NCBI RefSeq assembly: GCF_001402915.1
Contig: NZ_CP012945.1
Location: forward strand, 1,899,501 to 1,963,500
From: Devosia sp. A16
GTDB lineage: Bacteria; Pseudomonadota; Alphaproteobacteria; Rhizobiales; Devosiaceae
Reading direction: 5' to 3'
DNA length: 64,000 bases
Made by a program: the position numbers and the translations under genes. This document shows positions 31,917 through 59,812 of this stretch, piece after piece. A model generated the notes under the pieces. The model ran no database searches, was not told where the DNA came from, and saw only the letters and a program-made list of their open reading frames with translations. How positions within the stretch are numbered: position 1 is the first letter of the stretch; each line of letters opens with the position of its first letter.

Positions 31917-31958
31917 CTGATACATTGCAGGTTAAGCCTGATACATTGCAGCCTAAGC
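31917..31958. repeat. Tandem 21-bp duplication across the asd stop codon
   Basis: The 21-base unit CTGATACATTGCAG plus a GTTAAGC or CCTAAGC end occurs twice in tandem (31917-31937 and 31938-31958), differing at two positions. The right copy holds the asd stop codon, so the second stop in the left copy lies in frame after it. It looks like a recent local duplication at the gene end. Confidence 0.7.
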
Positions 31959-32993
31959 CGCCTTCTGCTCCACCAGGCGGCGCTCGATCAGCGTCTCGAG
32001 GATCTGCACGGTGTTGAGCGCCGCGCCCTTCCTGAGGTTGTCGCTCACCACCCAGAGGCTCAGGCCGTTCTCGACCGTCACATCTTCGCGGATGCGGCTC
32101 ACATAGGTGTCGTACTCGCCCGCCGCTTCCACCGGCGTGGCGTAGCCACCGGCCTCGCGCTTGTCGATCACCGCAACCCCCGGCGCCTCGCGCAGCGCTT
32201 CACGCGCCTCGTCGGCGGTGATCGGGTTGGCGAATTCGAGGTTCACCGCCTCGGAGTGGCCGACGAACACCGGCACCCGCACACAGGTGGCGGTGAGCTT
32301 GATCTTGGGGTCGAGGATCTTCTTGGTCTCGGCCACCATCTTCCATTCTTCCTTCGTATAGCCGTCCTCCATGAACACATCGATGTGCGGGATGACGTTG
32401 AAGGCGATCTGCTTGGAAAACTTCTTGGGCTCGGGCTTGTCGTTGACGAACACGCCCTTGGTCTGGTCCCACAGCTCGTCGACGCCGTCCTTGCCGGCGC
32501 CGGAAACGGACTGGTAGGTGGCGACCACCACGCGCTTGATCGTCGCGAGGTCATGCAGCGGCTTCAGCGCCACCACCAGTTGCGCCGTCGAGCAGTTCGG
32601 GTTGGCGATGATGTTCTTGCGGTCGTTCCGCGCCATGTACTCGTCGAGCACCTGCGCGTTGACCTCGGGCACCACCAGCGGCACGTCGGCGTGATAGCGC
32701 CAGAAGCTCGAATTATCGACCACGATGCAGCCGGTGGCGCCGATCTTCTCGCCATATTCCTTGGCGATCGCCGAGCCGGCGCTCATCAGCGCGAAATCGA
32801 CGCCCTTGAAATCGAAATGCTCGAGGTTCTGCACCTTGAGCCGCTTGTCGCCATAGCTGATCTCCTGGCCCTGCGAGCGGGCGGAGGCCAGCGCGATCAC
32901 TTCGGAAGCGGGAAACTTCCGCTCCGCGAGGATGTTGAGCATTTCCCGGCCCACATTGCCTGTGGCCCCGACGACGGCGACGCGATAACCCAT
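31953..32993 (-). CDS. asd: Aspartate-semialdehyde dehydrogenase
   Basis: Reduces beta-aspartyl phosphate to aspartate semialdehyde, the branch point to lysine/diaminopimelate, threonine and methionine. The 346-residue protein has the NADP motif VAVVGATGNVGREML, catalytic Cys134 in NPNCSTAQL, and the conserved stretch QSVSGAGKDGVDEL. AGAGGA lies eight bases before the ATG. It is preceded by a 180-base leader with hairpins and a Thr/Lys-rich reading frame, which suggests control by amino-acid supply. Nothing follows it in an operon. Confidence 0.97.
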   Translation of the reverse strand: MGYRVAVVGATGNVGREMLNILAERKFPASEVIALASARSQGQEISYGDKRLKVQNLEHFDFKGVDFALMSAGSAIAKEYGEKIGATGCIVVDNSSFWRYHADVPLVVPEVNAQVLDEYMARNDRKNIIANPNCSTAQLVVALKPLHDLATIKRVVVATYQSVSGAGKDGVDELWDQTKGVFVNDKPEPKKFSKQIAFNVIPHIDVFMEDGYTKEEWKMVAETKKILDPKIKLTATCVRVPVFVGHSEAVNLEFANPITADEAREALREAPGVAVIDKREAGGYATPVEAAGEYDTYVSRIREDVTVENGLSLWVVSDNLRKGAALNTVQILETLIERRLVEQKAA

Positions 32994-33023
32994 TTTGGAA
33001 AGTCCTCTTTGCCTTCATTCCCC

Positions 33024-33049
33024 CCGCGCTGGACCAGCCTGGTCCGCGG
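33024..33049 (-). promoter_or_regulatory. Hairpin in asd leader, 30 bases before the start codon
   Basis: GGACCA and TGGTCC pair across GGC, with CCGC/GCGG extending the stem beyond a small bulge. A second stem, TCCCCGG/CCGGGGA (33068-33091), lies just before it on the same transcript. Neither is followed by a T run, so control would be of asd translation or of Rho access rather than intrinsic termination. Together with the leader frame they look like an attenuation region. Confidence 0.45.
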
Positions 33050-33096
33050 CACATGGCATCCGGCCGCTCCCCGGCGGGAGTTGCCCGGGGATCGGC

Positions 33097-33192
33097 TCAG
33101 GGGGTTTTGGTGGTTTTGGTCGCCGAAACAACGACACCACGAAGACCCGTGGTCTTCGTTTTGGTCATTGTGATGTGGTGGGTCTTGCGCAT
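33097..33192 (-). CDS. Thr/Lys-rich leader peptide of asd (putative attenuator)
   Basis: A 31-codon frame on the asd strand, 104 bases before asd. It starts MRKTHHIT, then MTKTKTTGLRG, three valines, SA, and ends TKTTKTP before TGA. Ten residues are Thr and five are Lys, products of the pathway that asd serves. A second in-frame ATG at 33168 would give 23 residues. The coding part itself holds a perfect 9-bp hairpin (ACGAAGACC/GGTCTTCGT, 33139-33159). The ribosome site is weak: AGAGGA lies about 12 bases before the first ATG. The role is inferred from the codon content and position; such leaders are established for thr, his, trp, leu and ilv operons. Confidence 0.65.
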   Translation of the reverse strand: MRKTHHITMTKTKTTGLRGVVVSATKTTKTP

Positions 33193-33309
33193 CCCGCAAC
33201 CCGATCCTCTTGTCCGGCGCCGCGTTTCTACGCCGAAATCGCAAATAGTCAATCACCTATAGGACATCGCCTACGCGGGCAGGATTCAGCCGCGTCTCCT
33301 GTGATCCTC

Positions 33310-33355
33310 CCCCCGTGGCGGGGAGGGGGACCGGCGAAGCGGTGGAGGGGCGGCC
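33310..33355. repeat. Short family A-like palindrome upstream of the flavoprotein gene
   Basis: CCCCCGTGGCGGGGAGGGGG followed by CCGGCGAAGCGG and GGAGGGGCGG, the same kind of sequence as the longer copies elsewhere. The gap 32994-33410 otherwise holds only the asd leader. Confidence 0.5.
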
Positions 33356-33410
33356 AGACGCTCGGTCGCCTGCCCTATGCGTGCCGTAGAACTCCGTGTA
33401 TCTCCCACCC

Positions 33411-34604
33411 ATGCAACATTACGACGTGATCATCCTCGGCGCCGGCGCGGCCGGCCTCATGGCCGGCATCGAAGCCGGCAAGCGCGGCCGCTCGGTGCTG
33501 GTGATAGACCATGCCAAGAATGCCGGCGAGAAGATCCGCATCTCCGGCGGCGGGCGCTGCAACTTCACCAATATCAACGCCACGGTGAAGGCGGGACGCG
33601 ACCGTTTCCTCTCCAGCAACCCGCGCTACGCACTTTCGGCCCTCTCCCGCTACACTCCGGAGCATTTCATCGCGCTGGTCGACCAGTACGCCATCCCGTT
33701 CCACGAGAAGACCCTGGGTCAGCTGTTCTGCGACGGCTCGAGCCAGCAGATCGTCAACCTGCTGCTGAGCGAACTGAAGAAGGCGCATGGCACGCTGCTG
33801 CTCGACACCGAGATCGACAGCGTCAGCCACGCCGATGGCAGCTTCACGGTGATGACGGCAAGCGAGACGCTGATCGGGAAATCGCTGGTTGTCGCTACCG
33901 GCGGCAAATCCATCCCGAAGATGGGCGCCACCGGCTTGGCCTACCAACTCGCCACCCAGTTCGGGCTAGAGGTCACCGAGACCCGCCCCGCGCTAGTGCC
34001 GCTGACCTTCGAGCCGCGCATCCTCGAGCGCCTGGCGCCGTTGAGCGGCATCGCGGTCGACCCCACCCGCGTTTCGGTGAAGAAGAAGAGCTTCGACGAG
34101 GCCATGCTCTTCACCCATCGCGGCCTCAGCGGGCCGGCGATCCTCCAGATTTCGAGCTACTGGCGCGAGGGTGACGCCATCGTCATCGACCTGTTCCCCA
34201 ATGGCGACCTGGGCGAGATCCTCCGCGAGGCGCGCAGCACCACCCCCAAGCTGCAGTTGCAGACAGTGCTGTCGCAGCACCTCGCCAAGCGCCTCGCCCA
34301 GATGTTGGCCGAGGATATCGGCATCAGCACCATGATGGGCGACATGAGCGACAAATCGTTCGGCAAGATCGAAGACGCGCTGCGCCGCTGGACCATCAAG
34401 CCCACCGGCTCGGAAGGCTATCGCACCGCGGAAGTGACGTTGGGCGGCATCGACACCGACGGGCTCGATTCCACCACCATGCAGGCGCGCGCGGTGCCTG
34501 GCCTCTACTTCGTCGGCGAGGCCGTCGACGTCACCGGCTGGCTCGGCGGCTACAACTTCCAGTGGGCCTGGGCCTCCGGCTGGGCCGCGGGACAGGTCGC
34601 CTGA
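33411..34604 (+). CDS. NAD(P)/FAD-dependent oxidoreductase, HI0933/YhiN family
   Basis: A 397-residue flavoprotein. It begins MQHYDVIILGAGAAGLMAG, the FAD dinucleotide fold, followed by the family-specific GEKIRISGGGRCNFTN. The second FAD contact VVATGGKSIPKMGATG and the C-terminal GLYFVGEAVDVTGWLGGYNF, with WAWASGWAAG after it, are typical of the YhiN group. The physiological reaction of the family is unknown. Single gene. Confidence 0.92.
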   Translation: MQHYDVIILGAGAAGLMAGIEAGKRGRSVLVIDHAKNAGEKIRISGGGRCNFTNINATVKAGRDRFLSSNPRYALSALSRYTPEHFIALVDQYAIPFHEKTLGQLFCDGSSQQIVNLLLSELKKAHGTLLLDTEIDSVSHADGSFTVMTASETLIGKSLVVATGGKSIPKMGATGLAYQLATQFGLEVTETRPALVPLTFEPRILERLAPLSGIAVDPTRVSVKKKSFDEAMLFTHRGLSGPAILQISSYWREGDAIVIDLFPNGDLGEILREARSTTPKLQLQTVLSQHLAKRLAQMLAEDIGISTMMGDMSDKSFGKIEDALRRWTIKPTGSEGYRTAEVTLGGIDTDGLDSTTMQARAVPGLYFVGEAVDVTGWLGGYNFQWAWASGWAAGQVA

Positions 34605-37946: not shown

Positions 37947-38022
37947 GGGGCTGTAGCTCAGTTGGGAGAGCGCATCGTTCGCAATGATGAGGCCAGCGGT
38001 TCGATTCCGCTCAGCTCCACCA
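37947..38022 (+). tRNA. tRNA-Ala (anticodon CGC)
   Basis: A 76-base cloverleaf: acceptor GGGGCTG pairs with CAGCTCC, the D arm is AGCTCAGTTGGGAGAGC-like, the anticodon arm is CATCG-TTCGCAA-TGATG with CGC at the anticodon, the T arm is AGCGG-TTCGATT-CCGCT, and CCA is encoded. CGC reads the Ala codon GCG. Confidence 0.95.
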
Positions 38023-59492: not shown

Positions 59493-59522
59493 AACCATTG
59501 TCGGTCGAGCAATCGGCTGGCG

Positions 59523-59663
59523 AGTTCTCAGGGCGGGGTGCAATTCCCCACCGGCGGTAAATGGGCGAACGCCCAAAGCCCGCGAGCGCTTTCGGAGCGA
59601 TCCGAGGGGTCAGCAGATCCGGTGAAACTCCGGAGCCGACGGTATAGTCCGGATGAAAGAGAA
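59523..59663 (+). promoter_or_regulatory. FMN riboswitch (RFN element)
   Basis: Closing stem GTTCTC (59523-59528)/GAGAAC (59658-59663). The conserved RFN segments are all present in order: GGCGGGGTGCAATTCCCCAC and CGGCGGT, GCCCGCGAGC, a variable arm, GGTCAGCAGATCCGGTGAAA, CTCCGGAGCCGACGGTATAG and TCCGGATGAAAGAG. Binding of FMN would lower expression of the transporter gene. A CCCCG/CGGGG hairpin at 59703-59716 lies in the right place for an expression platform, but no T run follows; the mode of control is unclear. Confidence 0.96.
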
Positions 59664-59812
59664 CGGGATTTACGCTGGCTCTGCCGGCGTCCCTTGGTCC
59701 GTCCCCGTTGCGGGGAGGAGATCCATGCCGAGCATGGTGGAGGGGGCGCTCGTCATTTCCCATCGCGATTCCCCGTAACCCTGAGGAAACAGGCTACGGA
59801 AAGGATCGTTTG

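Follow-up and report, generated by a model that had tools for sequence, protein, structure and literature searches.

The product of asd, aspartate-semialdehyde dehydrogenase, carries out the step common to the formation of lysine, threonine, methionine and diaminopimelate. A familiar leader system in this part of metabolism is thrL of E. coli, which contains threonine and isoleucine codons and controls the thrABC operon by means of an intrinsic terminator. The asd locus of Devosia described here resembles thrL in that a leader peptide rich in codons for pathway end products precedes the biosynthetic gene; it differs in that the gene is asd rather than thrABC, the codons are for threonine and lysine rather than threonine and isoleucine, and no intrinsic terminator was found in Devosiaceae.

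Two other systems come from the same order. Sinorhizobium trpL, which encodes the 14-amino-acid peTrpL from a leaderless small ORF (sORF), is the tryptophan attenuator of trpE (PMC10117765) and is likewise a leader-peptide attenuator, although of another gene and for another amino acid. Closer still is SEP5 of Sinorhizobium meliloti, an sORF with six Thr and three Lys codons clustered near its 3′ end, which lies in the 5′-UTR of a gene termed ‘aspartate dehydrogenase’ and was shown to be translated by Ribo-seq and Western blotting (Hadjeras et al. 2023, PMC10117765). In the passages of that paper that deal with it, SEP5 is described as ‘possibly a leader peptide’ and as conserved only in Sinorhizobium. 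From the paper’s wording we infer that the gene downstream of SEP5 is asd and that SEP5 is the same element as the Devosia leader; read in this way, both are sORFs that precede asd and carry a Thr/Lys codon cluster at their 3′ end. SEP5, however, was called Sinorhizobium-specific, whereas the leader was scored here in 14 families of Hyphomicrobiales and three others, and the SEP5 passages contain no RNA structure or mechanism, in contrast to the promoter element and RNA architecture reported below. As far as those passages go, the wide distribution and the RNA architecture go beyond the published SEP5 proposal. No asd leader besides SEP5 was found among the matches listed from the open-access literature, a scope outside which most subscription papers lie. 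In the available passages of a Caulobacter paper (PMC4117421), the matches to ‘asd’ are the abbreviation aSD and there is no asd leader, while those of PMC1273637 and PMC3766115 contain ‘asd’ 0 times. The initial annotation of the Devosia sequence knew of no asd leader of this type in Hyphomicrobiales; given the SEP5 proposal, the idea is not wholly new.

The window, that is, the whole 64,000-nucleotide stretch of Devosia sp. A16 DNA that was analysed, carries asd and its leader on the minus strand:

31953..32993, minus strand: asd, aspartate-semialdehyde dehydrogenase, 346 aa (TIGR01296 asd_B 457 bits, PRK14874 509 bits)
33003..33007, minus strand: likely asd Shine-Dalgarno sequence, GAGGA (from the sequence)
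33097..33192, minus strand: leader ORF of 31 codons, closed by a TGA stop at 33099-33097 (from the sequence and relatives with similar C-termini)
33103..33120, minus strand: control block ACC AAA ACC ACC AAA ACC (T K T T K T); one more sense codon and then the stop come after it (Devosiaceae leader comparison)
33225..33252, minus strand: putative promoter TTGACT-N16-TAGAAA (TTGACT 33252-33247, TAGAAA 33230-33225; sequence only)

The leader ORF lies within the 402 nt that separate asd from a divergent flavoprotein frame of the HI0933 family (33396-34604, plus strand). As the initial annotation had described it, the frame is on the asd strand and its peptide, MRKTHHITMTKTKTTGLRGVVVSATKTTKTP (33192-33097, minus strand), contains ten Thr and five Lys in 31 codons; its stop is 103 nt from the asd ATG (32993). 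A Pfam scan of the 31-aa peptide matched no family. The closest named relatives of the window’s asd are those of Devosia insulae (97% identity) and Devosia sp. Root413D1 (96%), and the family labelled f1 below is therefore called Devosiaceae. The interval from the asd promoter to the divergent gene contains, at window positions ~33303-33360, a GC-rich palindromic stretch, cctccccccgtggcggggaggggg, that by eye resembles a dispersed intergenic repeat. Elsewhere in the window are an FMN riboswitch (59520-59668, plus strand, 118.8 bits) and a tRNA gene (37947-38019, plus strand, 66.1 bits).

Up to 450 nt upstream of asd were scanned at 278 loci, and the most Thr/Lys-rich frame was taken at each. 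A frame was scored as a leader if it had at least 5 Thr/Lys in 10 residues, with at least 5 within the last 16 residues, and a stop 75–200 nt before asd. The loci comprised 80 named loci, genomes of the genus Devosia, other Hyphomicrobiales, a family labelled f22 and 40 families outside the order. The Hyphomicrobiales sample consisted of 80 regions, by genus, among the best matches listed of 397 genomes, together with 29 automatic loci beyond the window’s own; f22 was represented by the best 30 of 121 genomes, and, of 289 genomes outside the order, 40 regions were taken so that each family contributed one. The family and genus names given to the relatives’ genomes were inferred, and the f-numbers are labels. 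At one locus (L011) the 45 nt of upstream sequence are too short to reveal a leader.

A Thr/Lys-rich leader in the same sense as asd was scored at 134 of the 278 loci, representing 129 unique regions. One of these, L018 from a Hyphomicrobium MAG, passed the script’s thresholds, looks like a chance ORF and was judged false; it stays in both counts. The stop lies 78–195 nt before asd in the 134, and 90–130 nt before it in 117 of them, while the best frame in the remaining 144 loci never exceeds 5 Thr/Lys of 10. Under a stricter C-terminal test 131 of the 278 loci keep a leader, with f12 dropping to 3/4 and f40 to 0/1. Fourteen sampled Hyphomicrobiales families bear the leader. It was scored at all 41 Devosiaceae loci (40 distinct leaders), at 29/30 in f22, and at every locus of f9 (10/10), f42 (6/6), f5 (4/4), f12 (4/4), f25 (3/3), a mixed f21/f34 group (7/7) and f13, f40 and f46 (1/1 each); other f21 loci gave 4/5, f26 2/3 and f19 1/2. 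It was absent from f2 (0/13), from f28 and f29 (0/5 each) and from 13 further families sampled at one or two loci each. Among the named loci, 17 of 80 have it, and the carriers include Devosia, Mesorhizobium, Ochrobactrum/Brucella, Aquibium, Corticibacterium and Chelatococcus; no leader was found at the named Bradyrhizobium and Labrys loci sampled, and Hyphomicrobium gave only the false call L018. Outside Hyphomicrobiales 3 of 40 families scored (L242, L253 and L265), each with a similar Thr/Lys leader before asd, and L265 additionally has a terminator-like site. Two f22 loci, L223 and L225, have a short asd leader of weak Thr/Lys content in which the middle hairpin was not seen by eye; these are possibly decaying or minimal forms.

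The leader is also unusual in composition. Among the 902 window ORFs of at least 10 aa it alone reaches at least 7 Thr/Lys per 10 residues, and none of 4553 background ORFs in the flanks of related asd loci (287,402 bases) attains that score. Near hom and the two best-scoring of the nine DHDPS genes of the same genome, no Thr/Lys-rich ORF was found (best 4–5 of 10). The KTTKT-coding pattern AARACNACNAARACN matches the 5.03-Mb genome once, at the asd leader; since a backward-read control pattern matches twice, this count is no evidence by itself, and the evidence is the conservation. This is a genuine asd leader-peptide element, which many families of Hyphomicrobiales carry and others do not.

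As judged from the aligned peptides, only the C-terminal block adjoining the stop is conserved, and the remainder of the peptide varies. Across the 129 unique leaders, the Thr plus Lys fraction is 0.73–0.93 at -2 to -7, counted back from the stop, 0.27–0.49 at -8 to -15 and 0.07–0.19 from -16 on; among the 40 Devosiaceae leaders, Thr occupies -5 and -2 in 40/40, and Lys occupies -3 in 38/40 and -6 in 31/40. The initial annotation had pointed to Thr/Lys clusters at both ends of the frame and had proposed alignment of asd upstream regions as the check. That alignment bears out the run at the stop, with pathway end-product codons kept in a short ORF before the gene while the rest varies. The N-terminal cluster, by contrast, is limited to the window species or its nearest relatives: where the window has TKTKTT, its three nearest relatives have TKAETM, TKAETK and TKAETT and L093 has TRTKAG, and the cluster cannot be recognised in the other Devosiaceae leaders. 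A perfect 9-bp stem within the leader ORF, ACGAAGACC/GGTCTTCGT at 33159-33139, is likewise present as described, and is by eye shortened or broken in the closest relatives.

In the leaders, threonine is encoded by ACC in Devosiaceae, mostly by ACG in f9, by both in f22 and by ACC, ACT or ACA in f42; the codon thus shifts between families while the residue stays threonine, a pattern that points to selection acting on the amino acid. Lysine is encoded by AAA at 315 of 352 leader positions, as against 101 of 2097 Lys codons in 91 asd genes of leader-bearing loci, where AAG accounts for the other 1996; f42 is an exception, with AAG at 8 of its 10 leader Lys codons. The AAA preference could reflect sensing through the tRNA or, alternatively, a requirement for RNA that is rich in A and free of structure.

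A promoter-like element accompanies the leader. The motif TTGAC occurs 60–230 nt upstream of the leader stop at 123 of the 129 unique leader loci, as compared with 10 of 144 leaderless loci when a stretch of the same length was searched, a control that is unmatched because the leaderless set differs in taxonomy. It lies at 150–189 nt in 85 of those 123 loci, and TTGAC-N15..18-TANNA is found in 34 of 40 Devosiaceae. A standard sigma-70 scan found no promoter in the leader region. In the window, transcription would be expected to start at ~33218, and with a conserved promoter-like element upstream, the leader ORF should lie within the asd transcript.

Between the leader stop and asd, the RNA can be described as four short strands around a hairpin:

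33086..33091, minus strand: RNA strand 1 (UCCCCG), 5 nt past the leader stop, partner of strand 3 (conservation of helix 1:3)
33075..33080, minus strand: RNA strand 2 (CUCCCG), able to pair with strand 3 in a local hairpin or, over a longer distance, with strand 4 (Devosiaceae alignment)
33068..33073, minus strand: RNA strand 3 (CGGGGA) (Devosiaceae alignment)
33027..33048, minus strand: hairpin C, variable in stem sequence (covariation)
33021..33026, minus strand: RNA strand 4 (CGGGGG), which pairs with strand 2 and precedes the asd ribosome-binding site (Devosiaceae alignment)

The initial annotation had placed stable hairpins before asd and had asked whether three stems were conserved. Hairpins can indeed form between the leader ORF and asd, although the folding energy of the window’s leader does not stand out (z -1.85, equalled by 8 of 200 shuffles); the downstream helices are conserved and in part covary, and the 9-bp stem is not. 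In an alignment of 40 Devosiaceae sequences, helix 1:3 is paired in 100% of cells, 2 of which carry changes on both sides. Helix 2:4, formed between CUCCCG and a run of purines ahead of the asd ribosome-binding site, is paired in 98.8%, with 1 double-changed cell. Both helices show little sequence variation. The alternative helix 2:3 is paired in 97.5%, with zero double changes. Hairpin C has a covariation score of 0.430 as against 0.154 when shuffled (0/500 reach it) and at most 0.158 when slid, with 54 double-changed cells. Helices 1:3 and 2:4 and hairpin C occupy separate nucleotides and can together form an H-type pseudoknot. Their joint score gives 93.3% paired cells, and 0/500 shuffles attain any of five measures, a significance mostly owing to hairpin C. 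Pseudoknot-compatible pairings were below shuffled energy in 16 of 16 groups tested (mean z -0.94 to -2.87), a test covering 114 of the 129 leaders, from which leaders more than 130 nt from asd, including all ten of f9, were dropped. A nested alternative, 1:4 with 2:3, is often also possible because strands 1 and 2 are alike, as are strands 3 and 4.

Helices of the 2:4 type, differing in sequence, occur in many families. The f22 counterpart pairs CCCUCUCC with GGAGAGGG just before the Shine-Dalgarno sequence, in an alignment of 35 of 38 f22-type rows (L223, L225 and one duplicate omitted). There the structure is 86.7% paired, as compared with at most 55.3% when slid, and 11 cells are double-changed against 3.5 when shuffled, but 6–12 with slid partners; compensatory cases were seen by eye in L224, L216, L217, L221 and L238. 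When strands 2 and 4 were swapped between loci, cognate pairs did better in two of seven groups, f22 (p 0.04) and f21 with f34 (p 0.03), and no better in f1 (0.36), f9 (0.87), f42 (0.64), f5 and others (0.09) and f12 with f25 (0.48); L227 and L232 were also omitted from this test and from the ribosome-position test below.

A covariance model built from Devosiaceae (R2) was run on 57 leader loci of other families and 28 leaderless loci. Its 13 matches below E 0.01 all fall at the asd leader, the best being L117 (5e-11), followed by L042 (8e-8) and by L163, L160 and L122 (2e-6 to 5e-6). Below E 0.1, 21 of the 57 loci are matched at the leader, together with three matches in the wrong place or on the wrong strand (L117 plus strand, L053 minus strand and L216 158-267). 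Leaderless loci gave none below E 1 and one at 3.3. In its own genome R2 finds asd at E 7e-23, the next-best site, which is GC-rich and intergenic, at 0.004 (22 bits), and nine more at E 0.04–0.8; given these secondary sites, the cross-family matches of ~14–20 bits rest on place as much as on score. A connection between that second-best site (L282), also intergenic, and the cctccccccgtggcggggaggggg stretch of the window is a guess. The corresponding f22 model (R1) did much worse than R2: its matches in other families were weak, the best at E 0.08, and its first off-target match came at E 0.31. No Rfam family, amino-acid leader families included, reached its gathering score in the window’s asd leader or in ten related loci, and at E up to 5 the only match was an unrelated sRNA family at 10.8 bits.

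Taken together, the best reading of the locus is a ribosome-mediated cis-attenuator of asd that senses both threonine and lysine, to which we assign a probability of roughly 0.77, lowered slightly because of the backward KTTKT control and the misplaced R2 matches. Under this model, 33252-32994 would form the asd mRNA leader with its short ORF, which would be translated in Devosia. When charged Thr- or Lys-tRNA is low, the ribosome would slow in the Thr/Lys codon run. When both amino acids are plentiful, it would proceed to the stop, 5 nt upstream of strand 1, and its footprint would reach over that strand; a ribosome at the stop would therefore cover strand 1, and its position should select between the alternative pairings, namely 1:3 with 2:4, or 2:3 with strands 1 and 4 otherwise engaged. 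A shortage of either amino acid would thereby presumably raise asd expression. Attenuation by the ribosome was also the initial proposal, and the stop-adjacent Thr/Lys run, the promoter-like element and the partly covarying helices speak for it, whereas the lack of an intrinsic terminator in Devosiaceae speaks against its classic form.

The switch is plausible from the layout, although equilibrium folding did not reproduce one driven by the ribosome. In a test of 106 leaders in five groups, the predicted probability of helix 2:4 in Devosiaceae was 0.15 with the ribosome at the stop, 0.06 at -3 and 0.01 from -7; a model-like response was confined to Devosiaceae, where it was weak, with small effects in f22, f42 and f21 and an opposite one in the mixed f5 group. 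With the ribosome masked, the accessibility of the asd Shine-Dalgarno sequence averaged 0.46–0.47 at every position over the 134 leaders, and that of the start codon fell from 0.55 to 0.49–0.50. Switching of Shine-Dalgarno sequestration by ribosome position thus finds no support in masked folding.

How ribosome position would be converted into asd expression may involve Rho, translation or mRNA decay, and in Devosiaceae Rho-dependent termination or ribosome access to asd is more likely than an intrinsic terminator. One form of the cis-attenuator is control of asd translation, in which helix 2:4, near the ribosome-binding site, would limit loading unless the leader ribosome shifts the pairing. 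The 3′ end of strand 4 averages 17–27 nt before the asd start in five groups (8–33 nt at single loci), and the near-complete pairing of 2:4 in Devosiaceae, with versions of other sequence in many families, fits such a role; the flat Shine-Dalgarno accessibility just described does not, nor does the position of strand 4 in the window, clear of the Shine-Dalgarno sequence. We consider this form possible, at somewhat less than even odds. Similar odds attach to Rho-dependent attenuation, in which the C/A-rich, G-poor codon run would be a Rho-loading stretch that a slowed ribosome covers. The want of an intrinsic terminator in Devosiaceae is in keeping with it, as is the placement of the control codons at the extreme end of the ORF, followed by ~100 nt of untranslated spacer; however, the C/A bias follows from the codons themselves, and the G-containing ACG codon is frequent in f9 and f22.

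Classic attenuation of the thr/trp type, in which stalling would prevent an intrinsic terminator before asd from forming, is improbable. The leader layout does match that of classic attenuators, and a hairpin with a T-run occurs in 7 of 36 f22 leaders (1.5 expected) and in the single f176 leader (0.1 expected). Overall, however, such sites number 8 in 129, against 3.9 expected by shuffling, and none was found between leader and asd in the 40 Devosiaceae, including the window. An intrinsic terminator as the general output was consequently rejected for Devosiaceae, and for the same reason the element is not a textbook thr/trp attenuator.

It is more improbable still that the peptide itself acts as a microprotein rather than as a sensor. 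Tagged SEP5 protein of S. meliloti could be detected in the soluble fraction (PMC10117765), and peTrpL, a leader peptide of S. meliloti, is reported to have a role in trans, yet the sequence here is poorly conserved beyond roughly the last 7 residues and its position upstream of asd is kept. Finally, a chance or composition artefact is already refuted: taking the most Thr/Lys-rich frame per locus builds in some enrichment, and the backward KTTKT pattern did match twice, but no background ORF reaches the score of the leader, the leaderless loci stay at 5 of 10 or less, and its place, sense and stop proximity are kept across 14 families though the selection does not impose them.

Returning to the Thr- and Lys-sensing cis-attenuator, a more specific and rather doubtful version is that it represents a terminator-less class of attenuators. 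In such a class, one peptide would read threonine and lysine, the latter mostly through the rare AAA codon, and would thereby set a four-strand RNA, able to form an H-type pseudoknot in which 1:3 and 2:4 lie around a variable hairpin, close to the ribosome-binding region of asd, the shared branch-point gene. It would act across much of Hyphomicrobiales by way of translation or Rho rather than a U-tract terminator.

If the cis-attenuator reading is true, the joint reading of threonine and lysine would give a single gene control of an ‘either is short’ kind. A hint from one genus would also be carried over to numerous others, symbiotic, soil-dwelling and host-associated. Moreover, the strong preference for AAA bears on whether attenuators pick the codons whose tRNAs lose their charge first.
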